Below are positions 54,929-64,000 of a stretch of DNA of 64,000 nt, one piece after another. A program made the translations under genes and the position numbers. Below the pieces are notes generated by a model. That model ran no database searches and was not told the DNA's origin. It saw only the letters and a list, made by a program, of their open reading frames with translations. Origin of the DNA: Corallococcus macrosporus (GTDB lineage: Bacteria; Myxococcota; Myxococcia; Myxococcales; Myxococcaceae); assembly GCF_017302985.1 (NCBI RefSeq), contig NZ_JAFIMU010000007.1, positions 3,301,001 to 3,365,000 on the forward strand. Direction: 5' to 3'. Numbering within the stretch: the stretch's first letter is position 1; every line of letters starts with the position of its first letter.

Positions 54929-56107
54929 ATGAAGACCGGAGAGGGATTCAAGGGGTTTACCTGGGTGCTGACGACCCTGGCGATGGCACTGACCAGCACG
55001 GGCTGCGGTGAGGAGGACGTCGCGGATTCCAACGACTGGAACCCGCACACTGTCTTGACGGCCGCTTCCACGTCCGACGCGGGCACGAGCATCGACGCGG
55101 GCTGGGACCTCGACGCGGGGCCGTGCGAAACCACCCCGTACGACCCGAAGCTGGGCACGCTTCAGCTCCAACCGGGCTTCGTGGCCGGTGAGTCCGTGCC
55201 ATTACCCGCGGCGGCCGGCGTGGTGGGCGTGACGCCCGGCCCTACGTACTCGCTCTACACGTTGGTGTCCGAGAACTATCACGGCCCGCATGCGCTGTAC
55301 TCGCTGGGCACGTGGCCTCTCCTGTCGTTGGGCTCGGCGCCGCTGCTCGACATGAGCCCTTCCGGCCTCCCGAACTACAGCAGTTACTTCGTGCAGACGG
55401 ATGGCCAGCACGTCATCACCGGCGTGAACTTCCCAGGCACCGTGGGCGTGTATGACATCGCCGCGCCCTCCGCCTCCACCTCCATTCCTTTGACGACCCT
55501 CACTGCCGCAGCGGTCGTGCCGGGCGCGTTCCTCCTCACCACGAGGCCCCTGGGGAACCCGCCAGGAGGCGCCGGCGAAACAGAGACCCTCGTCGCGTTG
55601 AGGACGGACACGTCGCCGCTCACCCAGACGACGGTGGCGACGTTCCCTGCGGAGAGCCAACGCAGCGCCTCCGTCTCCGTGGCCACTCACGGCGCACTGA
55701 TGGTGAGCTATTACGAGGCCTCCTCCTTCATCAAGGCCCGCCTGGTGGCCCCGGCGACCGTTGCCCAGGCGCTCACTTCCGGCGTGCCGTTCTCCCTGGC
55801 GGACGCGCCCGTGATGAACGTGGGTTCGCGCTTCAACCGCATTGCCGGGCACGGCGCCGGCATGTCGGTGCTTCGTGGCTCCATTCCCGCGCCGGGCTTC
55901 CCCTATACCGACAGCGACGTCTCGCGCTTCCCCATCACCGTGACGAACAACGGTGCAACCGTGACCGTCGGCAGCCGTCAGCCAATCGTTGTCTTCCCGG
56001 ACCGGTGCACCCAGGTGACCGGCATGAATGCCATCGGTCCAGATCTGCTCCTGCGTGTGCAGGACAAGAACGGCACTCGCCTGGTCCGCATCCAGCAGGC
56101 TCCGTGA
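54929..56107 (+). CDS. DAG-repeat lipoprotein, paralogue 1
   Basis: A 392-residue lipoprotein, ATG 54929 with AGGAG nine bases upstream. The signal peptide ends in TSTGCGE. A short linker holds three DAG units (SDAGTSIDAGWDLDAG). The rest, starting YDPKLGTLQLQPGFVAGESV, is beta-rich with a regular strand pattern (VTPGPTYSLYTLVSENYHGP; FVQTDGQHVITGVNFPGTVG) and ends DLLLRVQDKNGTRLVRIQQA; it may be a beta propeller. Paralogues 2 (56370) and 3 (61981) share this whole domain. Paralogue 3 follows a cobalamin riboswitch, so a B12-uptake link for the family is inferred. I do not recognise a named family. Confidence 0.8.
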   Translation: MKTGEGFKGFTWVLTTLAMALTSTGCGEEDVADSNDWNPHTVLTAASTSDAGTSIDAGWDLDAGPCETTPYDPKLGTLQLQPGFVAGESVPLPAAAGVVGVTPGPTYSLYTLVSENYHGPHALYSLGTWPLLSLGSAPLLDMSPSGLPNYSSYFVQTDGQHVITGVNFPGTVGVYDIAAPSASTSIPLTTLTAAAVVPGAFLLTTRPLGNPPGGAGETETLVALRTDTSPLTQTTVATFPAESQRSASVSVATHGALMVSYYEASSFIKARLVAPATVAQALTSGVPFSLADAPVMNVGSRFNRIAGHGAGMSVLRGSIPAPGFPYTDSDVSRFPITVTNNGATVTVGSRQPIVVFPDRCTQVTGMNAIGPDLLLRVQDKNGTRLVRIQQAP

Positions 56108-56369: not shown

Positions 56370-57650
56370 ATGAAGACCGGAGAGGGATTCAAGGGGTTTG
56401 CCTGGGTGCTGACGGCCCTGGCGATGGCACTGACCAGCACGGGTTGCGGTGAGGGGGACGTCGCGGATTCCAACGACTGGAACCCGCGCACTGTCTGCGT
56501 CGACGGACAGTGTGGACTGACGGCCGCTTCCGCGTCCGACGGGGGCATGGCTTTCGATGCCGGCACGACTTTCGATGCCGGCACGACCTTCGATGCCGGC
56601 ACGGCGGCGGACGCGGGCACGACCTCCGACGCCGGGTCTTCGTGCGAAACGGAGACGTATGACCCGAAGCTGGGCACGCTCCAACTCCAGCAAGGCTTCG
56701 TGGCCGCTGAGTCCGCGCCCCTGCACGAGGGGACGGGCCCATTGGGCGTCACTCCTGGCCCCGCGTACTCGCTCTACACGTTGGTGTCGGGGAGCCCCAA
56801 CGGCCCGCATGCGCTGTATTCGCTGGGCACGTGGCCTCAACTGTCATTGGGGGTGACGCCGCTGCTGGAAATGCCCGCTGCTGACAGCTACAACCACCGC
56901 GGCGATTTCGTGGAGACGGATGGACAGCGCGTCATCGCCGGCGTGAACTACCCGGGAACCCTGGCGGTGTATGACATTGCCGCGCCCGCTGCTTCCACCT
57001 CCATCCCTTTGACGAACCTCACTGCCGCAGGGGTCATCCCGGGCGCGTTCCTGCTCACCACGAGGCCCTTGGGAAACTCCCCGTGGGAATACCCGTGGGA
57101 GGGGGAGGCCGGAGAACGTGAGACCCTCGTCGCGCTGAGGACGGACACCGCGCCGCCCACACGGACGACGGTGGTGACGTTCCCGTCAGAGAACCGAAGC
57201 AGTGTCTCCCTCTCCGTGTCCACTCACGGCGTGGCGCTGGTGAGCTACTACGACCCCGCCTTCAACCTCGTCACCCGCGTGGTGGCCCCGGCGGCCATCG
57301 CCCAGGCCATGACTTCCGGCATCCCGTTCTCCCTGGCGGATGCGCCCGTGATGAACACGGGGGCACCTGCCGTCCGCGTGGTGAGGCACGGCAGGGGTGT
57401 GTCGGTGCTTCGCATCGGTCCCCCAGCGCCCAACTCCCCCTATGCGTTTGATTACAGCGACGTCTCGCGCTTCGCCCTCAGGGTGACGAACGCTGGTGCG
57501 ACCGTGACCGCTGGCGCCCGGCAACCCATTGTCGTCTTCCCGGACCGGTGCACCCAGGTGACCGATATGACCGCCATCGGGCCGGACCTGCTCCTGCGCG
57601 TGCAGGACAAGAACGGCGCTCGCCTGGTCCGCATCCAGCAGGCTCCGTGA
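56370..57650 (+). CDS. DAG-repeat lipoprotein, paralogue 2
   Basis: A 426-residue lipoprotein, ATG 56370, same ribosome site as paralogue 1. Signal peptide ends TSTGCGEGD; the linker has a Cys pair (CVDGQC) and five DAG units. The C-terminal domain (YDPKLGTLQLQQGFVAAESA onward) parallels paralogue 1 but carries an extra PWEYPWEGEAG insert near residue 245. The gene is a tandem copy. It is followed after about 25 bases by the promoter of the riboswitch-btuB unit. Confidence 0.8.
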   Translation: MKTGEGFKGFAWVLTALAMALTSTGCGEGDVADSNDWNPRTVCVDGQCGLTAASASDGGMAFDAGTTFDAGTTFDAGTAADAGTTSDAGSSCETETYDPKLGTLQLQQGFVAAESAPLHEGTGPLGVTPGPAYSLYTLVSGSPNGPHALYSLGTWPQLSLGVTPLLEMPAADSYNHRGDFVETDGQRVIAGVNYPGTLAVYDIAAPAASTSIPLTNLTAAGVIPGAFLLTTRPLGNSPWEYPWEGEAGERETLVALRTDTAPPTRTTVVTFPSENRSSVSLSVSTHGVALVSYYDPAFNLVTRVVAPAAIAQAMTSGIPFSLADAPVMNTGAPAVRVVRHGRGVSVLRIGPPAPNSPYAFDYSDVSRFALRVTNAGATVTAGARQPIVVFPDRCTQVTDMTAIGPDLLLRVQDKNGARLVRIQQAP

Positions 57651-57673: not shown

Positions 57674-57702
57674 TTGACGGGCATGGGGTGACCTCCTAGA
57701 AC
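57674..57702 (+). promoter_or_regulatory. Promoter of the riboswitch-btuB unit
   Basis: TTGACG (57674-57679), a 17-base spacer and TAGAAC (57697-57702) lie directly upstream of the first cobalamin riboswitch. Confidence 0.55.
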
Positions 57703-57711
57703 GGCCGGGCC

Positions 57712-57920
57712 CTTGGGTGCCCATGCCGGGCCTTCAAGAGGGAAGCCGGTGTGAGTCCGGCGCGGTCCCGCCACTGTGTACGGGTTGCCCTGAGGTCCAG
57801 GGCCGGAAGCCTCGGCTGTCACCACTTTCGCATCCCGATGCGAGGGGAAGGTGGAGGCTTCCTTCCAGAAGGGCGCAGCGTGCGCCCACGTCTGGAGCCC
57901 GTCAGCCAGGAGACCTGCCC
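57712..57920 (+). ncRNA. Cobalamin (B12) riboswitch upstream of btuB
   Basis: The core reads GGGAAGCCGGTGTGAGTCC then GGCGCGGTCCCGCCACTG, the conserved B12-box region of cobalamin riboswitches. The 3' part of the aptamer is present at 57902-57916 as GCCAGGAGACCTGCC. Between them lie variable stems (e.g. around 57826-57860, including GGGGAAGGTGG). Binding of adenosylcobalamin is known to shut off downstream expression. It precedes the BtuB gene by 65 bases. Exact ends are approximate. Confidence 0.9.
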
Positions 57921-57927
57921 AGGGGTG

Positions 57928-57944
57928 CGGCAGCGGTGCTGCCG
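57928..57944 (+). terminator. Hairpin in the expression platform of riboswitch 1
   Basis: CGGCAGC (57928-57934) and GCTGCCG (57938-57944) pair perfectly around GGT. The T/C-rich stretch CCTTCTCTCTT (57950-57960) follows, so it may be an intrinsic-type terminator that competes with the free aptamer. Whether control is by termination or by hiding the ribosome site cannot be decided by eye. Confidence 0.5.
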
Positions 57945-57985
57945 TCAGGCCTTCTCTCTTCGACGGAGGGAGCGGAAGGCGGAGC

Positions 57986-59980
57986 ATGCGGCGCTCGCTT
58001 CTTGCCCGGACCGTCGCGGGTCTGGTGCTCAGCTTCCAGGGACTGGCCCGGGCCGGGCAGGAGACGCCTGCGCCCGAGGCCAGCGAAACGCCCCTTCCCG
58101 AGTTCGTCCTCCCCACCGTGGAGGTCATCGGCAGGGACGACCCCTCCGCCCCCGTCGACTCCGCTCAACGCCGCGACCCCACCGGCGCCATCACCGTCAT
58201 CGATGCCCGCGAACGCGCGGGTGAAGCTCGCGACACGGCGGAGTTGCTCGGCGGATCCGCGAGCCTCGTCGTGCAGGACTCCGGCGGCTATGGCCAGAGC
58301 AAGAGCCTGGTGGTTCGCGGCGCGTCGTCCAATGGCGTGCTCGTGTTCCTGGATGGCATTCCGCTCAACGGCGCGGGCGGCGTCGCGGACCTGTCGCTCA
58401 TCCCCGTCGCGCTGCTGGAGCGCATGGAGATCCTTCGCGGCGCGGCCGGGGCCCGCTACGGCGCGGGCGGCCTGGGCGGCGCGGTCAACCTCGTCACCCG
58501 TGCGCCTTCCTCACGGCTGCTCTCCAGCGGCGAGGTCACCTACGGCAGCTTCGACACCGTGATGGCCCACGTCGCCGCGTCGGGCGCGCTGCTCGACGGT
58601 CAGGCGCTGGTGCTGCTGCACGGTGGCCGCTCGCAAGGGGACTTCAGCTACCGCGTGGACGAACTGCCCGCGCTGGACGACAACCCGCTCACGCAGGAGG
58701 TGCGCACCCGCAACGACGCTCGCGGCGGTGGTGCGCTCCTGAAGTACCGGCACGGCCTGGACGGTGGCGGACGCGTGGACGTGCTGGCGGAGCTGTCGCT
58801 GGAGGACCGCGCGCTCGCGGGCACCGTGCAGAACCCCACCGCGTCCCGCCGTCAGGACCAGACGCGCCTGTCGCTGGGGGCTCGCTGGGCACGGCCCTTC
58901 GGTGACACGGGCGAGGGCAGCGCTCGCGGGTTCTTCCGCCGCGACTGGCTGGACGTCACCGGCGGCACCACCGGCGTGGACTCCGGCGCGCAGCACTACA
59001 CCGTGGGCGGCGTGGAGGTGGAGGGCCGCGCGGTGCTGGGGCCGAACGCGCTCGCCGTCACGCTCGCCGGGTCTTCGGAGTCCGTCACGCAGGCGGTGGG
59101 GGGCCAGGCCGCGTCGTGGTGGCGCGCGAGCGTCATGGCCATGGACGAGCTGTCCCTGTTCTCCGAGCGCGTGAAGCTGGTGCCTTCGCTGCGCGTGGAG
59201 CGCGTGGGGCACTACTCGCTGCTGTCGCCCAAGCTGGGCGCGAGCGTGGACCTGGGCCGTGGCTTCGGCGTGCGCGCCAACGCGGGCCAGTCCCACCGCG
59301 CGCCTTCGTTCCTGGAGCTCTACATCCGTCAGGGGCTGATGCTCCCCAACCCGGAGCTCAAGCCCGAGCGCGCCCTGTCCGTGGACGCCGCGGCCCTGTG
59401 GCACGGCGACACCTGGAGCGTCACGGCCGGTGGCTTCGCGGCCGTGTACGAGAATCTCATCGCCTACGAGCTGTATCCGCCGAATCTCGCCAAGCCCTAC
59501 AACTTCGCCGCCGCTCGCGTGTGGGGCGCGGAGTTGGAGGTGGAGGCCCGGCCTCGTGCGTGGCTCACCGCCACCAGCAGCTATGCGTGGACCCGCACGC
59601 AGAACCGCTACGGCGACCCCCGCTACTTCGGCAAGGAGCTGCCGTACCGGCCTCGCCACAAGTGGGTGGGCCGGCTGCGCGTGGGGCCGGACTGGCTCAA
59701 CGGCCGCACGGAGGTGCTCGTCCAGTCCGCGCAGTTGATCAACCGCGTGGGCGAAGCGCGCCTGTCGCTGCCTTCGCGCACCTGGGTGAGCGTGGGGGCC
59801 TCCAGCACCTTCCTGCACAAGCCCGACCTCACCGTGTCGTTCGACGTGAAGAACCTGCTCGACGCGCGGACCGCTGACTACACCGGCATGCCGCTGCCCG
59901 GCCGCGCCGCCTACGTGACGTTCGCCGTGGCGCTCGACCCTTCCGCCTCCGAGGACTCCCATGTCGCGTCCCTTCCCTGA
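57986..59980 (+). CDS. btuB: TonB-dependent cobalamin receptor (BtuB)
   Basis: A 664-residue outer-membrane receptor, starting at ATG 57986 with GGAAGG upstream. The signal peptide ends near ARAGQ. A TonB-box-like LPTVEVIG is followed by the plug domain (DTAELLGGSASLVVQDSGGY; VFLDGIPLNGAGGVADLSLI; MEILRGAAGARYGAGGLGGA), then the barrel, ending with FDVKNLLDARTADYTGMPLP and a C-terminal strand AAYVTFAVAL, a few residues before the end of the protein. The upstream cobalamin riboswitch identifies the substrate as B12 or a corrinoid. The gene overlaps the next gene by 20 bases, which argues for paired function. TonB-ExbB-ExbD and the BtuCDF genes are not in the window. Confidence 0.93.
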   Translation: MRRSLLARTVAGLVLSFQGLARAGQETPAPEASETPLPEFVLPTVEVIGRDDPSAPVDSAQRRDPTGAITVIDARERAGEARDTAELLGGSASLVVQDSGGYGQSKSLVVRGASSNGVLVFLDGIPLNGAGGVADLSLIPVALLERMEILRGAAGARYGAGGLGGAVNLVTRAPSSRLLSSGEVTYGSFDTVMAHVAASGALLDGQALVLLHGGRSQGDFSYRVDELPALDDNPLTQEVRTRNDARGGGALLKYRHGLDGGGRVDVLAELSLEDRALAGTVQNPTASRRQDQTRLSLGARWARPFGDTGEGSARGFFRRDWLDVTGGTTGVDSGAQHYTVGGVEVEGRAVLGPNALAVTLAGSSESVTQAVGGQAASWWRASVMAMDELSLFSERVKLVPSLRVERVGHYSLLSPKLGASVDLGRGFGVRANAGQSHRAPSFLELYIRQGLMLPNPELKPERALSVDAAALWHGDTWSVTAGGFAAVYENLIAYELYPPNLAKPYNFAAARVWGAELEVEARPRAWLTATSSYAWTRTQNRYGDPRYFGKELPYRPRHKWVGRLRVGPDWLNGRTEVLVQSAQLINRVGEARLSLPSRTWVSVGASSTFLHKPDLTVSFDVKNLLDARTADYTGMPLPGRAAYVTFAVALDPSASEDSHVASLP

Positions 59981-61568
59981 TGCGCGGCTCGCGCTGCTGC
60001 TGTCGGCCGTTGCCGCGGTGCTTCTCACCGGTTGCCCCGAGGAGAAGGTCCTGTGCACGTCCGGCCTGAGCGTCTGCGGCGCGGAATGCGTGGACCTCCA
60101 GGGCGACCCTTCGAACTGCGGCGCGTGTGGCACCGCGTGCGGGGCAGGGGAGACGTGTCAGGCGGGCGTGTGTGGCTGCCAGCCGGGCACGGAGGTCTGC
60201 GGTGACGCGTGTGTCGCGCTCGCGAGTGATCCGCTGAACTGTGGCGGTTGTGGCGTCACGTGTCCTTCCGGCCAGGTCTGCGAGTCCCGCACCTGCCGCG
60301 AGGGCTGCTCCGCCGGTGCCGAGCGGTGCGGGGACAGCTGCGTCGTCCTCGCGAATGATCCGCTCCACTGCGGCGCTTGCGGCAGGGTGTGCCCGGACGT
60401 GCAGTCCTGCCACGAGGGGCGGTGCATGTATGACGTGGTGACGGCCTGCTACACGAACGGGCAGCTCGTCGGCATCCAGGCGGGGACGGACCGGATGGGC
60501 CCCCGGCGGCAGTTCGGCTCGGGCGTGCAGGCGCTGGCGGCGTGGGATGGCGTGGTGCTGGCGGCGGACGCGGCGCGCTCGGTGCTGTCGCAGGCGCCGG
60601 CGGGCGCGCTGGGGACGCTGGTGGAGGAGGACTCGCTGGGCGCGGTGGCGGCTTCGCCCAATGACATCCTCGTGGACCCTCCGTATGTGTATGTCCTCGA
60701 CTCGGTGAACAACACGCTCCAGGTGCTCAAGCGGGAAGGGGCCGCGCAGGGCGGTGGGCTGGGATTGCGCACGGTGGGGCAGGTGAACCTGGGCGCGAAC
60801 ACCAGCCCGCAGGTCCTCACGAAGCGCGGCGACACGTTCTACATCCCGCTGTTCGGCACGGCCGGCTCCGACTTCAAGCAGGGCAACGCGGTGGCTCGCG
60901 TCAGCGTGAGCGACCCGGAGCATCCCCGGCTCGTGGACACTGTTTCGCTCAAAGGCCTGGACCTGAAGTCGTTCGATGGCGGCACGACGATGGCACTGCC
61001 GTACGCGGCGGTGTCGGTGGACGCGGGCGTGTACGTGGCGCTCACCAACCTGAACCCCGCGAATGATTACCTGCCCAACGGGCCCGGGATGCTCGCGCGC
61101 ATCGACCCGGCGGATGGCGGTGTGAAGGCCATCGACCTGGGCGCGAAGGACTGCCTCAACGCGGGCGACGTGCAGGCCGTGGGCGACCAGTTGGTGGTGA
61201 GTTGCCTGGGCGAAGCGGTGTTCGACACGGCGGGCGGCTACCGCGCGAAGGCGGTGCGGGCGACGGGGCTGGTGCTGGTGAAGGATGACAAGCCCGTGGC
61301 GTCGTATGCGCTGTCGCCGGGGTGCTCGGGCGGGCCGGAGAACGGCTGCGACCTCGCGGTGGGCGGGCGGCTCGCGGTGGTGGGCAATGCCGTGTACGTC
61401 ACGGACGTGAACGCGGGCCGCGTGTTCGTGGTGGAGGTGCGCGATGGCCAGCTCGTCGAGCGGCGCGGCAATTCCACTCCGGCGGCGAAGGGCCCGGCGT
61501 TGGATGTGTGTCCGGTGGATGCGCGGCGCGGGGTGTCCAACGCCATTGACATCGTCGCGGTGCCTTGA
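59961..61568 (+). CDS. Stig1-type Cys-rich plus beta-propeller lipoprotein, coupled to BtuB
   Basis: A 535-residue lipoprotein whose ATG overlaps the end of btuB by 20 bases. The signal peptide ends LLTGCPEE. Residues about 30-155 hold three Cys-rich modules of the type DPxNCGxCGxxCxxGxxC (Stig1-like). From 160 on there are WD/YncE-like beta-propeller strands: GVQALAAWDGVVLAADAARS, PNDILVDPPYVYVLDSVNNT, LPYAAVSVDAGVYVALTNLN and so on. In Bacteroides the propeller lipoprotein BtuG binds B12 on the cell surface and passes it to BtuB. The gene order here suggests a functional counterpart, but the sequence does not look homologous at a glance and the role is inferred. Confidence 0.8.
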   Translation: MSRPFPDARLALLLSAVAAVLLTGCPEEKVLCTSGLSVCGAECVDLQGDPSNCGACGTACGAGETCQAGVCGCQPGTEVCGDACVALASDPLNCGGCGVTCPSGQVCESRTCREGCSAGAERCGDSCVVLANDPLHCGACGRVCPDVQSCHEGRCMYDVVTACYTNGQLVGIQAGTDRMGPRRQFGSGVQALAAWDGVVLAADAARSVLSQAPAGALGTLVEEDSLGAVAASPNDILVDPPYVYVLDSVNNTLQVLKREGAAQGGGLGLRTVGQVNLGANTSPQVLTKRGDTFYIPLFGTAGSDFKQGNAVARVSVSDPEHPRLVDTVSLKGLDLKSFDGGTTMALPYAAVSVDAGVYVALTNLNPANDYLPNGPGMLARIDPADGGVKAIDLGAKDCLNAGDVQAVGDQLVVSCLGEAVFDTAGGYRAKAVRATGLVLVKDDKPVASYALSPGCSGGPENGCDLAVGGRLAVVGNAVYVTDVNAGRVFVVEVRDGQLVERRGNSTPAAKGPALDVCPVDARRGVSNAIDIVAVP

Positions 61569-61577
61569 AGCGTTGCA

Positions 61578-61606
61578 TTGACAAGGACTGCCGTCCGCCA
61601 TACTCC
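61578..61606 (+). promoter_or_regulatory. Promoter of the second riboswitch unit
   Basis: TTGACA (61578-61583), 17 bases, TACTCC (61601-61606). The upstream bases GCATTGACAA are the same as in the promoters of paralogues 1 and 2. Confidence 0.6.
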
Positions 61607-61622
61607 AGCGCGCGTCGTTGGT

Positions 61623-61812
61623 ACGCCGCATCCGCATGATGTGGCGTTTAAAGGGAACCCGGTGTGAGTCCGGGACTGCCCCGCAGCGGTGATCAGGAAC
61701 GAAAGCCGTCCTCGCAAGCACTGGTCCTTCAATGGGCTGGGAAGCGACGGCCAGTAGGTGGGTGACCCGATGAAGGTCTCCCTCGCCTGTGAGTCCGAAG
61801 ACCTGCCACGAC
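61623..61812 (+). ncRNA. Second cobalamin riboswitch
   Basis: A 5' hairpin (61623-61647) is followed by AAAGGGAACCCGGTGTGAGT and CCGGGACTGCCCCGCAGCGG, close to the E. coli btuB leader, then variable arms and the 3' aptamer segment GAGTCCGAAGACCTGCC (61791-61807), which is almost identical to E. coli. It lies upstream of lipoprotein paralogue 3 (start 61981) and presumably controls that gene and the surface protein after it. Confidence 0.92.
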
Positions 61813-61869
61813 CCATGCCCCCGGGCATGGCCAGACCGGAGCCTCCGAGGGGAGGTGACGGAGGTCTTC
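61797..61869 (+). promoter_or_regulatory. Expression platform of riboswitch 2
   Basis: GAAGACCT (61797-61804, in the aptamer's conserved 3' strand) is exactly complementary to AGGTCTTC (61862-61869). Between them are two self-contained hairpins: CCATGCCC/GGGCATGG (61813-61830, 2-base spacer) and CCTCC/GGAGG (61842-61855). The long-range pairing would dismantle the aptamer, as expected for a switch. The mechanism is inferred. Confidence 0.55.
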
Positions 61870-61980
61870 CGCTCGCGCGGCGTGTCGTGTCCTGACGTGT
61901 CCCTCGTTCGCGGTCCGCTCTCCGTCAGCGCCCCTTGGATTCACCTCGCCCGTGGGGGCGATGCAAGGGAGCAGTCGCGG

Positions 61981-63489
61981 ATGAAGACAGAGCGGATGAT
62001 GACGGGGCGGGGACTCAAGGACGTCGCGTGGGTGCTGACGACCCTCGTGATGGCGTTGACCGCGACCGGTTGCGGTGATGAGTGCACCGATGATTTCGAC
62101 TGCCGCGACCAGGGCACTCCCGCGGAGGGCCAGCGGTATGTCTGCGTCGAGAACCGTTGCGAGCTGACGTCCAACCCCGTGCCTGATGCGGGCACGGGTA
62201 GCGACGCGGGCTCGAACACCGACGCGGGCACGGGTGGCGATGCCGGTGCGACCACGGACGCGGGCACCGTCACCGACGCGGGCTCGAACACCGACGCGGG
62301 CACGGGCACCGATGCCGGTACGTCGACCGACGCGGGCACGAGCACGGACGCTGGGACGACGACGGACGCGGGCACGGGCAGCGATGCCGGTACGACGACC
62401 GACGCGGGCACGAGCACGGACGCTGGAACAACCACCGACGCGGGCACGGAGACGGACGCGGGCACGGAGACCGACGCAGGAACGGATCCGTGCGCGAGCG
62501 CCACCTACGACCCGAAGCTGGGCACGCTCCAGCTCCAGACGGGCTTCGTGGCCGGTGAGTCCGCGCCGCTGCCCACGGCCGCGGGCCCGGTGGGCGTGAC
62601 GCCCGGCCCCACGTACTCGCTCTTCACGGTGGTGTCGGAGGGCTACACCGGCCCGCATGCGCTGTACTCGCTGGGCACGTGGCCGCAGGTGTCGCTGGGC
62701 GCGACGCCGCTGTTCGACGTGGCCGCTCCCGCCGACCGGGGCCCCTCCGCCGCGATCTTCCTCAGCCCCTTCGTGGAGACGGATGGTCAGCGCGTCCTCA
62801 CCGGCTACACGAAGTCCGGCGGTGGCTTCCCCGGCTCCGTGGGCGTCTACGACAGCGCCACTCCGTCCTCCTCCACCTACGTCTCCGCCCCGAGCAACTT
62901 CTCCGCGGGCGTCGTGCCGGGCGCGTTCCTCGTCAACGGCGGTGGGCTCGGCACGGTGTCGGCGGGCCTGGGCATCTACGCGTTGAGGACGGACACGTTC
63001 AGCGCGCTGAAGGTGGGCACGCTCCCTCCGGAGACGGGCGGCAGTGGCTTCACCGCCGTGTCCACCAACGGCGTCGCGATGCTCGGCTACTACTCCGACG
63101 ACACCTTCCTCAACGAGGGCCGCGCGGTGGGCCCCGCGACCATCGCCCAGGCGCTCTCCTCCGGCACGCCGTTCGACGTGGCGGCCGCGCCCGCGCTCGA
63201 GGTGGGCTCCAACTTCGTCGCCGCCTCCGGCCACGGCGAGGGCGTGTCGGTGCTTCGCGGTGACTACGTTCCCCCGAACTACAACTTCGAAGGCACGGAC
63301 GTCTCGCGCTTCGCCTTCACCGTGACGGATGCCGGCGCGACCGTGTCCATCGGCGCCCGTCAGCCCGTCCTCGTCTATGCGGATCAGTGCACGCGCGTGA
63401 CCGGGCTGACCTCGCTCGGCTCGGACCTGCTCGTCGGCGTGGATGACAAGAACGGCACGCGCCTCGTGCGCATCCAGCAGGCCCGGTGA
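61981..63489 (+). CDS. DAG-repeat lipoprotein, paralogue 3, under riboswitch control
   Basis: A 502-residue lipoprotein from ATG 61981 (GGGAG upstream). Signal peptide ends TATGCGDE. A Cys-rich segment (CTDDFDCRDQ; YVCVENRCEL) precedes 17 DAG hexapeptides, much longer than in paralogues 1 and 2, and then the shared domain from YDPKLGTLQLQTGFVAGESA to DLLVGVDDKNGTRLVRIQQA. The gene lies about 170 bases after a cobalamin riboswitch, and the next gene, a surface lipoprotein, follows after eight bases. A B12-binding or scaffold role at the cell surface is inferred from context. Confidence 0.85.
   Translation: MKTERMMTGRGLKDVAWVLTTLVMALTATGCGDECTDDFDCRDQGTPAEGQRYVCVENRCELTSNPVPDAGTGSDAGSNTDAGTGGDAGATTDAGTVTDAGSNTDAGTGTDAGTSTDAGTSTDAGTTTDAGTGSDAGTTTDAGTSTDAGTTTDAGTETDAGTETDAGTDPCASATYDPKLGTLQLQTGFVAGESAPLPTAAGPVGVTPGPTYSLFTVVSEGYTGPHALYSLGTWPQVSLGATPLFDVAAPADRGPSAAIFLSPFVETDGQRVLTGYTKSGGGFPGSVGVYDSATPSSSTYVSAPSNFSAGVVPGAFLVNGGGLGTVSAGLGIYALRTDTFSALKVGTLPPETGGSGFTAVSTNGVAMLGYYSDDTFLNEGRAVGPATIAQALSSGTPFDVAAAPALEVGSNFVAASGHGEGVSVLRGDYVPPNYNFEGTDVSRFAFTVTDAGATVSIGARQPVLVYADQCTRVTGLTSLGSDLLVGVDDKNGTRLVRIQQAR
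62185..62484 (+). repeat. DAG-encoding 18-base repeat array
   Basis: Seventeen copies of a D-A-G-(T/S/A)-x-x unit, 18 bases each, run in frame. Related linkers in paralogues 1 and 2 have 3 and 5 units. Variation is mostly in the third and last two residues. The array is coding and of the low-complexity, spacer type. Confidence 0.9.
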
Positions 63490-63497
63490 GGACACCC

Positions 63498-64000
63498 ATG
63501 AAGACCCTTCTTCCGAAGTCGTTCGCGCTGGGCTTCACCGCGCTGCTCGCCGTGGCTTGCGGCGGCGAAGACATGCAGGACTCCCTCCAGACACAGCCGC
63601 TCGTGGGCGACGCTTTCGCGGACCGCATCGAGTCCTTCTCGCCGGGCACCGGCGCCGGGTTCGGTCAGTCGCAGCTTCCGGGCATCGTGCTGGGCGCTCC
63701 GCAGGGGGCTGGCGCGGGGTCGGGCTCGCTGGACGTGGTGTCGCTCGGGTTCAACGGCGTCATCGTCCTGGAGTTCACCGACATCGCGGTGACGGACGGG
63801 CCGGGCGTGGACCTGCTGGTCTTCGAGAACGCGTTCATCAAGCCCAGCGGCAAGCCGTTCGCGGAGACGGGCGTGGTGGCCGTCAGCGACGACGGCGTCA
63901 CCTGGCACGAGTTCCCGTGCGCGTCCTCGGACGTGACGAACAACTTCCCGGGCTGCGCGGGCGTCACGCCCGTGTACTCGAGCTCCGCCAGTGGCATCTC
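63498..64000 (+). CDS. Surface lipoprotein, partial (C-terminus off the right edge)
   Basis: At least 167 residues. MKTLLPKSFALGFTALLAVA ends in a Cys followed by GG, a lipoprotein signal. The mature part has SLDVVSLGFNGVIVLEFTDI and VTDGPGVDLLVFENAF, then VVAVSDDGVTWHEFPC. The pattern 'GSxxLGFxGxIxLxFxDxxVxDGxGxDxxVFENAF' is one I recall from surface proteins encoded in B12-uptake loci of Bacteroidetes and others, but I cannot check it. The gene begins eight bases after paralogue 3, so it is probably in the same riboswitch-controlled operon. Confidence 0.75.
   Translation, partial: MKTLLPKSFALGFTALLAVACGGEDMQDSLQTQPLVGDAFADRIESFSPGTGAGFGQSQLPGIVLGAPQGAGAGSGSLDVVSLGFNGVIVLEFTDIAVTDGPGVDLLVFENAFIKPSGKPFAETGVVAVSDDGVTWHEFPCASSDVTNNFPGCAGVTPVYSSSASGI

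Follow-up and report, generated by a model that had tools for sequence, protein, structure and literature searches.

A cobalamin riboswitch-controlled locus of Corallococcus macrosporus predicted to encode BtuG-like and BtuH-like lipoproteins for vitamin B12 capture

The 64,000-nucleotide stretch of the Corallococcus macrosporus genome analysed here (the window; contig NZ_JAFIMU010000007.1, positions 3,301,001 to 3,365,000, forward strand) ends in a cluster of cobalamin riboswitches, a TonB-dependent receptor gene and lipoprotein genes. With a probability of about 0.77, we read this locus as a BtuB-like channel with BtuG-like and BtuH-like lipoproteins that form a cobalamin-repressed outer membrane system for capture and import of vitamin B12 and other cobamides. 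The computation shows the genes and riboswitches, a gene order kept in relatives, predicted folds for two lipoproteins (S1 and C) and no match to two key synthesis enzymes; cobamide binding, a complex with BtuB, surface exposure, hand-over and the OFF sense of the riboswitches are inferred.

Results

Three cobalamin riboswitches lie in one lipoprotein-rich locus

A whole-genome search with the RF00174 covariance model (gathering cut-off 31.5 bits) found three cobalamin riboswitches, every one at this locus, with scores of 98.9, 69.3 and 61.7 bits. The host genome is 9.8 Mb and 99.99% complete, and the cluster lies on contig C7, where it runs across the 3' edge of the window so that the S1 gene is cut by the window end. 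Coordinates are window positions, continued as window-equivalent positions beyond 64000.

54929-56107, + strand: lipoprotein A (392 aa), Asp-Ala-Gly (DAG)-linker paralogue of C; no riboswitch detected upstream
56370-57650, + strand: lipoprotein B (426 aa), DAG-linker paralogue of C; no riboswitch detected upstream
57698-57936, + strand: cobalamin riboswitch 1 (RF00174), 5' of the btuB-like gene; 69.3 bits, E 5.2e-15
57986-59980, + strand: btuB-like TonB-dependent receptor (664 aa); PF07715 and PF00593
59961-61568, + strand: Cys-rich propeller-type lipoprotein (535 aa); lipobox, STIG1/MXAN_6577-like region, propeller-type domain at 60435-61565
61601-61824, + strand: cobalamin riboswitch 2 (RF00174), 5' of the C-S1 pair; 98.9 bits, E 1.8e-23
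61981-63489, + strand: DAG-linker lipoprotein C (502 aa); residues 171-502 a predicted β-propeller without a Pfam family
63498-64172, + strand: S1, small lipoprotein (224 aa); predicted BtuH-like fold, distant relative of LIC_13355
64783-66189, beyond the window: lipoprotein D, C paralogue
66268-66427, beyond the window: cobalamin riboswitch 3 (RF00174); 61.7 bits
66602-67954, beyond the window, behind riboswitch 3: lipoprotein E, C paralogue
67954-68742, beyond the window, behind riboswitch 3: S2, S1 paralogue

A preliminary description of the window had placed two cobalamin riboswitches about 4 kb apart, the first before btuB and an overlapping Cys-rich propeller lipoprotein gene, the second before a DAG-repeat lipoprotein and a surface lipoprotein. 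This layout holds: the two riboswitches are 3.7 kb apart, the btuB-like and Cys-rich lipoprotein genes share exactly 20 bases, and riboswitch 2 is followed by C and S1. The present analysis adds riboswitch 3, which lies 2.3 kb past the window, S2, the C paralogues A, B, D and E, and a sixth C-family paralogue that stands alone on contig C17. Over the propeller domain, A, B, D and E share 50-57% identity with C, which makes five C-family copies at the locus, and S1 and S2 are 68% identical over their domain. Lipoboxes were assigned by eye.

A terminator scan around riboswitches 1 and 2 found nothing terminator-like on the + strand and one minus-strand match inside riboswitch 2. The riboswitches presumably act in the OFF sense, with B12 repressing expression. 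G095, a genome of the same genus, carries five cobalamin riboswitches, including a closely spaced pair that lies about 120 kb away from its btuB locus (G095:C1:8345832-8346894).

S1 is predicted to adopt a BtuH-like fold

S1 was modelled with AlphaFold from 71 aligned sequences with the Corallococcus carmarthensis copy (L105, 90% identical to window S1) first. The model has a pLDDT of 89.7, with a poorly predicted N-terminus. Its best VIA-align match is BtuH2 (7biz_A, chain residues 315-592; Z 13.9, rmsd 2.9, 152 aligned, 17% identity) and the second is the H domain of BtuG1 (8blw_B, chain residues 390-660; Z 13.0, rmsd 3.0, 158 aligned, 22% identity); the next folds are PAPP-A at Z 9.5 and CBM32 domains near 9. 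Foldseek gave BtuG1 as the sole match at E ≤ 0.001 (E 4.1e-5) and BtuH2 second (E 1.1e-3).

The C-terminal domain of BtuH holds B12 in a cleft and has low structural similarity to other known structures, and the corrinoid contacts of BtuH2 are Gln333, Asn399, Phe401, His476, Tyr510, Trp511 and Trp577 (PMC8941943). S1 has an Asn110-x-Phe112 motif spaced like Asn399-x-Phe401, with the Asn invariant and the Phe present in at least 90% of the 71 sequences; this is a lead only. The model indicates that S1 is BtuH-like by fold; it is not assigned as BtuH because sequence profiles fail to reach BtuH. Assignment of S1 to DUF4465/BtuJ was also considered and rejected: for the 18 S1 members scanned, Pfam gave only F5_F8_type_C, in 2 of them, with a best E of 0.041.

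C and S1 form a conserved pair linked to cobalamin riboswitches

S1 occurs in 56 and C in 56 of the 117 genomes of the order, and both in 55. The unpaired cases are G008, which has S1 without C, and G109, which has a weak C match (E 5e-4) without S1. A wider S1 set of 74 distinct loci was drawn from the best 80 of 143 profile matches in a named collection. Their titles name Myxococcota genera, metagenome-assembled genomes (MAGs) of Myxococcota or Deltaproteobacteria/Proteobacteria, one unclassified bacterium (L149) and two odd labels (L124, L175). S1 of the named Corallococcus loci is 82-90% identical to window S1, and a tblastn search of plasmids with S1 gave no match.

A riboswitch profile built from 17 riboswitches of the order genomes, some from the same species as the tested loci, found a same-strand riboswitch-like stretch 142 to 5588 bases upstream of S1 in 53 of the 74 loci. 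Infernal added L162 at 31.4 bits (0.1 under the cut-off), which brings the count to 54 of 74. A riboswitch lay behind the last S1 in none of the 74 and on the minus strand in one. In L129-L178, Infernal agreed with the profile on position, judged by coordinates, and scored over the cut-off in 28 of the 29 profile-positive loci, the exception being L142 at 26.9 bits. Riboswitch-positive loci include Myxococcaceae, Nannocystis (L169), a Polyangia MAG (L164) and a Lujinxingiaceae MAG (L178). A weak candidate in L156 was unconfirmed on re-check, and this locus is tallied as without.

C shows the same linkage. S1 follows within 600 bases of 44 of the 47 C genes found in 34 loci. A riboswitch-like stretch lies at most 900 bases upstream of 41 of the 47, 3 more stand at contig edges, and the remaining 3 are extra paralogues without S1. 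Kinship among the loci means that none of these linkage counts is independent. On the counts for the 74 S1 loci and 47 C genes, we rejected chance as the reason why the DAG lipoprotein and S1 sit beside a riboswitch.

The riboswitch-C-S1 unit is kept even in loci without a nearby btuB: no btuB is present in the fetched stretch of 8 of the 21 S1-bearing loci of the order (L080 and L081 are cut short by contig edges, and L084 carries S1 but no C). The C-S1 pair therefore need not act directly on BtuB. In other lineages, S1 stands in a row with btuB and further lipoproteins in L159, L163, L166, L167, L174 and L176. All of these except L174 have one or two other lipoprotein-like genes between btuB and S1, which may encode propellers, a reading based on weak hits in some of them and on similarity.

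Two records stand apart. L124 has a B12 locus of the Myxococcus type under the title Comamonas sp. KCTC 72670 and is therefore probably mislabelled. L175 is a MAG labelled Planctomycetaceae in which S1 lies 1.5 kb behind a strong cobalamin riboswitch, by transfer or misbinning.

C is predicted to be a β-propeller on a DAG linker

The model of the C domain (residues 171-502) is a β-propeller with a pLDDT of 95.8. The best 50 solved structures (Z 15.6-18.1) are mostly propellers and comprise designed, NHL, PQQ, integrin, YncE and other proteins. In the 17 members scanned, the domain had no Pfam match under E 0.01, and the C profile had no match at E ≤ 10 among Protein Data Bank (PDB) sequences. 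The proposed link between C and B12 rests on the riboswitch and on the bond with S1.

A propeller-type lipoprotein is conserved behind the btuB-like gene

The receptor matches the TonB plug (PF07715, 73.7 bits) and β-barrel (PF00593, 114.6 bits) families, both over the cut-off, and its best NCBIfam match is the BtuB equivalog TIGR01779. We call it BtuB-like, not BtuB, because that score is under the cut-off. Residues 14-156 of the lipoprotein encoded next match the MXAN_6577-like cysteine-rich family NF041328 (164.7 bits, cut-off 100), and its PF04885 match is also over the cut-off. The remainder is propeller-type, as indicated by profile matches. A profile of 20 homologues matches NHL and YncE chains: an NHL chain ranks higher (E 1.5e-8) than 8ptd/8ptf (E 8e-4) and the BtuG1 chain 8blw. 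8BLW is the BtuB1G1 complex (PMC10404256).

Position and fold class support reading this protein as BtuG-like, and it is not assigned as BtuG. In two distant btuB neighbours, PF16819 (DUF5074) gave weak matches under its cut-off (L174, E 0.0073; L176, E 0.12); judging from PMC13398666, this is probably the family of BtuG. The propeller-like protein of L174 matched only two LexA chains in the PDB (E 0.02-0.03).

Gene order was compared in 20 same-order loci, one per genome, a non-random sample picked for a riboswitch and/or Cys-protein match in which several loci end at contig edges. Cys-rich/propeller homology lies behind btuB in 19 of the 20 (exception L102). A btuF homologue is present in 19 (exception L087) and a btuC homologue in 13; 18 loci have both the lipoprotein relative and btuF, with the relative between btuB and btuF. 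The btuF and btuC products of G034 pass the Pfam cut-offs of PF01497 (Peripla_BP_2) and PF01032 (FecCD). This conserved order argues that the propeller-type lipoprotein has long belonged to a btuB-lipoprotein-btuF(-btuC) operon.

In the 20-kb stretch around the C. macrosporus locus (L004), searches for btuF and btuC gave no homologue; btuD was not searched for. Across 45 loci (L004, L065-L084, L105-L128), 19 with the propeller-type gene show neither btuF nor btuC: the window's own, Corallococcus loci, several from Myxococcus (L120, L122, L123, L125) and a few others (L074, L078, L112). Because many relatives carry both genes in this operon, their lack is local.

The host appears unable to make vitamin B12

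Profiles of the synthesis enzymes CobM/CbiF and CobQ had no match in the host genome at E ≤ 0.001; other pathway enzymes were not searched. As controls, each profile matched in 13 of 14 genomes, over the cut-off in 5 and 7, respectively. No cob genes were noticed in the 20-kb stretch, by reading translations only. Judged from these sequence searches, the host appears unable to make vitamin B12, and Myxococcus xanthus imports B12 and cannot synthesise it (PMC8156234). The genome also encodes a MetH-type protein, which scores 779.5 bits over positions 326-1182, below the cut-off of 1010.85. Possible candidates for the inner membrane step are FecCD permease matches at four sites of the genome and three BtuF-like matches with at most 38% identity.

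S1 is distantly related to the Leptospira lipoprotein LIC_13355

S1 matches NF033170, the LIC_13355 family, at 37.3 bits (E 1.6e-9, cut-off 120), which makes S1 a distant relative of LIC_13355 below family membership on sequence grounds. In 13 of the 74 S1 loci, none titled Myxococcaceae, S1 is preceded at no more than 0.35 kb by a gene for a lipoprotein with repeat domains. The products carry, in one to three copies, a domain some 95 residues long that ends in a GCGGFxWTxL-like motif and is a candidate new cobamide-related domain. Four of the genes were scanned:

L129:3636-4535: repeat-protein gene
L143:8910-9923: repeat-protein gene
L145:7764-9008: repeat-protein gene
L178:9201-9887: repeat-protein gene

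All four products match NF047669, the LIC13354 family, at E 1.8e-13 to 1e-6 and under the curated cut-off of 130 bits. The L129 protein gave nothing convincing against the PDB.

LIC13354 and LIC13355 are LA_4202 and LA_4203 (PMC5348505), and LA_4202-LA_4206 form the Leptospira cob II cluster, two of whose five genes may or may not serve B12 synthesis (PMC4758666). LIC_13355 has been examined as an adhesin that binds laminin and plasminogen in vitro, in a paper whose main text mentions neither B12 nor cobalamin (PMC11891782). A literature search for BtuH together with Leptospira found no paper. The arrangements are alike in that S1 is related to LIC_13355 and a repeat-domain gene, LIC13354-like in the four scanned, precedes S1 in the 13 loci. 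They differ in that the first gene of the pair is C in Myxococcaceae, all family matches are under the curated cut-offs, and the Leptospira pair adjoins cobTSC (PMC4758666), not btuB.

We put forward tentatively, at somewhat less than an even chance, that a BtuH-fold lipoprotein with an exchangeable partner (C in Myxococcaceae, a LIC13354-type protein in other Myxococcota and Leptospira) is a widespread cobamide-capture pair outside Bacteroidota. C and the LIC13354-type proteins would then be two new cobamide-binding classes, and the adhesin LIC_13355 a B12 scavenger.

Discussion

In the mechanism proposed for the locus, low cellular B12 would permit expression from the riboswitches. Riboswitch 1 would control the BtuB-like transporter and the overlapping propeller-type lipoprotein, probably translationally coupled, with the lipoprotein most likely sitting on BtuB like BtuG in Bacteroides. 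Riboswitches 2 and 3 would control the pairs of C-family and S1-family lipoproteins. S1 most likely holds the corrinoid in the manner of the BtuH domain. C consists of a predicted propeller and a flexible Asp-Ala-Gly linker and is most likely a further cobamide-capturing or docking protein. The lipoproteins would concentrate cobamide where it is scarce, lysed prey being one possible source, and pass it to BtuB.

Several results weigh against this reading. The Foldseek TM-score of S1 is 0.48 by query length for both BtuG1 and BtuH2, a modest match, and the sequence profiles A1 and A4 had no match to BtuH at E ≤ 10. Laminin and plasminogen binding in vitro is reported for LIC_13355 (PMC11891782), which makes other ligands possible for its relative S1. 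The receptor reaches 118 bits against the TIGR01779 cut-off of 599.7. Profiles of the Cys-rich lipoprotein match BtuG1 weakly (E 0.4, and 0.0061 with the 20-homologue profile), below NHL propellers, and PF16819 had no match in this lipoprotein at E ≤ 1. The nearest folds of the C model are too generic to indicate function. BtuG chains are missing from the best 50 structures for C, an absence noted here and not weighed as contrary evidence. An Rfam search for a relic found no riboswitch upstream of lipoproteins A and B; in L065, too, Rfam found none before the A/B-type lipoproteins, despite a 67-base nhmmer match there. No upstream riboswitch was detected in 20 of the 74 S1 loci, including all three titled Polyangiaceae (L155, L158, L171). 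In nine of these 20 the DNA before S1 is shorter than 1.5 kb (L132, L135, L138, L140, L149, L150, L154, L156, L161), and in 11 it is longer (L131, L155, L157, L158, L160, L170-L173, L176, L177). In the riboswitch-less L131, L155 and L176, btuB is near S1.

If S1 and C were surface adhesins or glycan-binding lipoproteins, a jelly roll of the discoidin/CBM32 type and a propeller merely under B12 control, the many CBM32 and discoidin domains that rank below BtuH for S1 in Foldseek and VIA-align, the weak F5_F8_type_C matches and the ligands reported for LIC_13355 (PMC11891782) would find a ready explanation. Both BtuH domains nevertheless score 3.5-4.4 Z over the next family, an adhesin is hard to square with cobalamin riboswitch linkage in 54 of the 74 loci, and the Leptospira pair sits in the cob II cluster; we consider this explanation improbable. 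Slightly better odds, still long, go to a division of labour in which B12 uptake needs only the btuB-like receptor and the propeller-type lipoprotein, and C-S1 serves another part of the B12 economy such as corrinoid-precursor capture or BtuJ-like vesicle display. It accommodates the 8 of 21 loci without btuB in the fetched stretch, and BtuJ works on Bacteroides outer membrane vesicles (PMC12751083), but S1 in a row with btuB in the six loci of other lineages speaks for a role of S1 in uptake through BtuB, as the capture system proposed here has it.

The nearest parallel is the BtuB-BtuG-BtuH(-BtuJ) loci of Bacteroides (PMC6143338, PMC10404256, PMC8941943, PMC12751083). Both have cobalamin riboswitches, a BtuB-type receptor, an adjoining propeller-type lipoprotein gene and a lipoprotein with a predicted or solved BtuH-domain fold, and many relatives of C. 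macrosporus have btuF and btuC in the same operon. The locus differs from those of Bacteroides in phylum, in the Cys-rich STIG1-like region on the propeller-type lipoprotein, in the five C-family DAG-linker propellers, in S1 as a lone H-type domain, in the absence of btuFC and in the lack of a sequence-level BtuH match. A TonB-dependent receptor under a cobalamin riboswitch is shared with the BtuB/BtuFCD system of Escherichia coli, which is not known to have accessory capture lipoproteins of this kind (PMC8941943).

The multi-lipoprotein B12-capture system suggested in the preliminary description thus gains support from conserved gene order, with a lipoprotein behind btuB in the sampled loci and riboswitch-C-S1 as a unit, and from the BtuH-domain fold predicted for S1. 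Its expectation of lipoprotein genes beside btuB in relatives is borne out for the propeller-type gene and not always for C-S1. The reported absence of BtuCDF and synthesis genes stands for btuF and btuC in the 20-kb stretch and for CobM/CbiF and CobQ genome-wide, but for btuFC it is local. The system had also been thought undescribed in this phylum, and among the matches listed in the open-access literature we found no account of a BtuG- or BtuH-type system for Myxococcota; such a system is apparently undescribed there. Homologues of DUF4465, the BtuJ-type family of B12-binding lipoproteins, are reported to occur in Myxococcota, and none of the six new test proteins of that study is myxobacterial (PMC13398666).

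Capture of B12 with the help of lipoproteins is known in detail from gut Bacteroides, and our results suggest that B12 scavenging of the gut-bacterial type exists in a second phylum. Predatory soil bacteria depend on B12 from outside, and a predicted BtuH-type fold under B12 riboswitch control in them suggests that such capture is a general response to scarcity of the vitamin. The analysis offers candidate functions for families annotated as hypothetical lipoproteins (S1, C, MXAN_6577-like and LIC13354/LIC13355) and another reading of the published adhesin LIC_13355.

Neighbouring open reading frames

Two further open frames lie beyond the window. A small one between S1 and lipoprotein D (L004:11320-11655) has a signal-peptide-like start by eye. 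The other, behind S2 (L004:15743-16282), has Rieske-type CTH...CPCH motifs by eye and is possibly co-transcribed with the riboswitch 3 genes.

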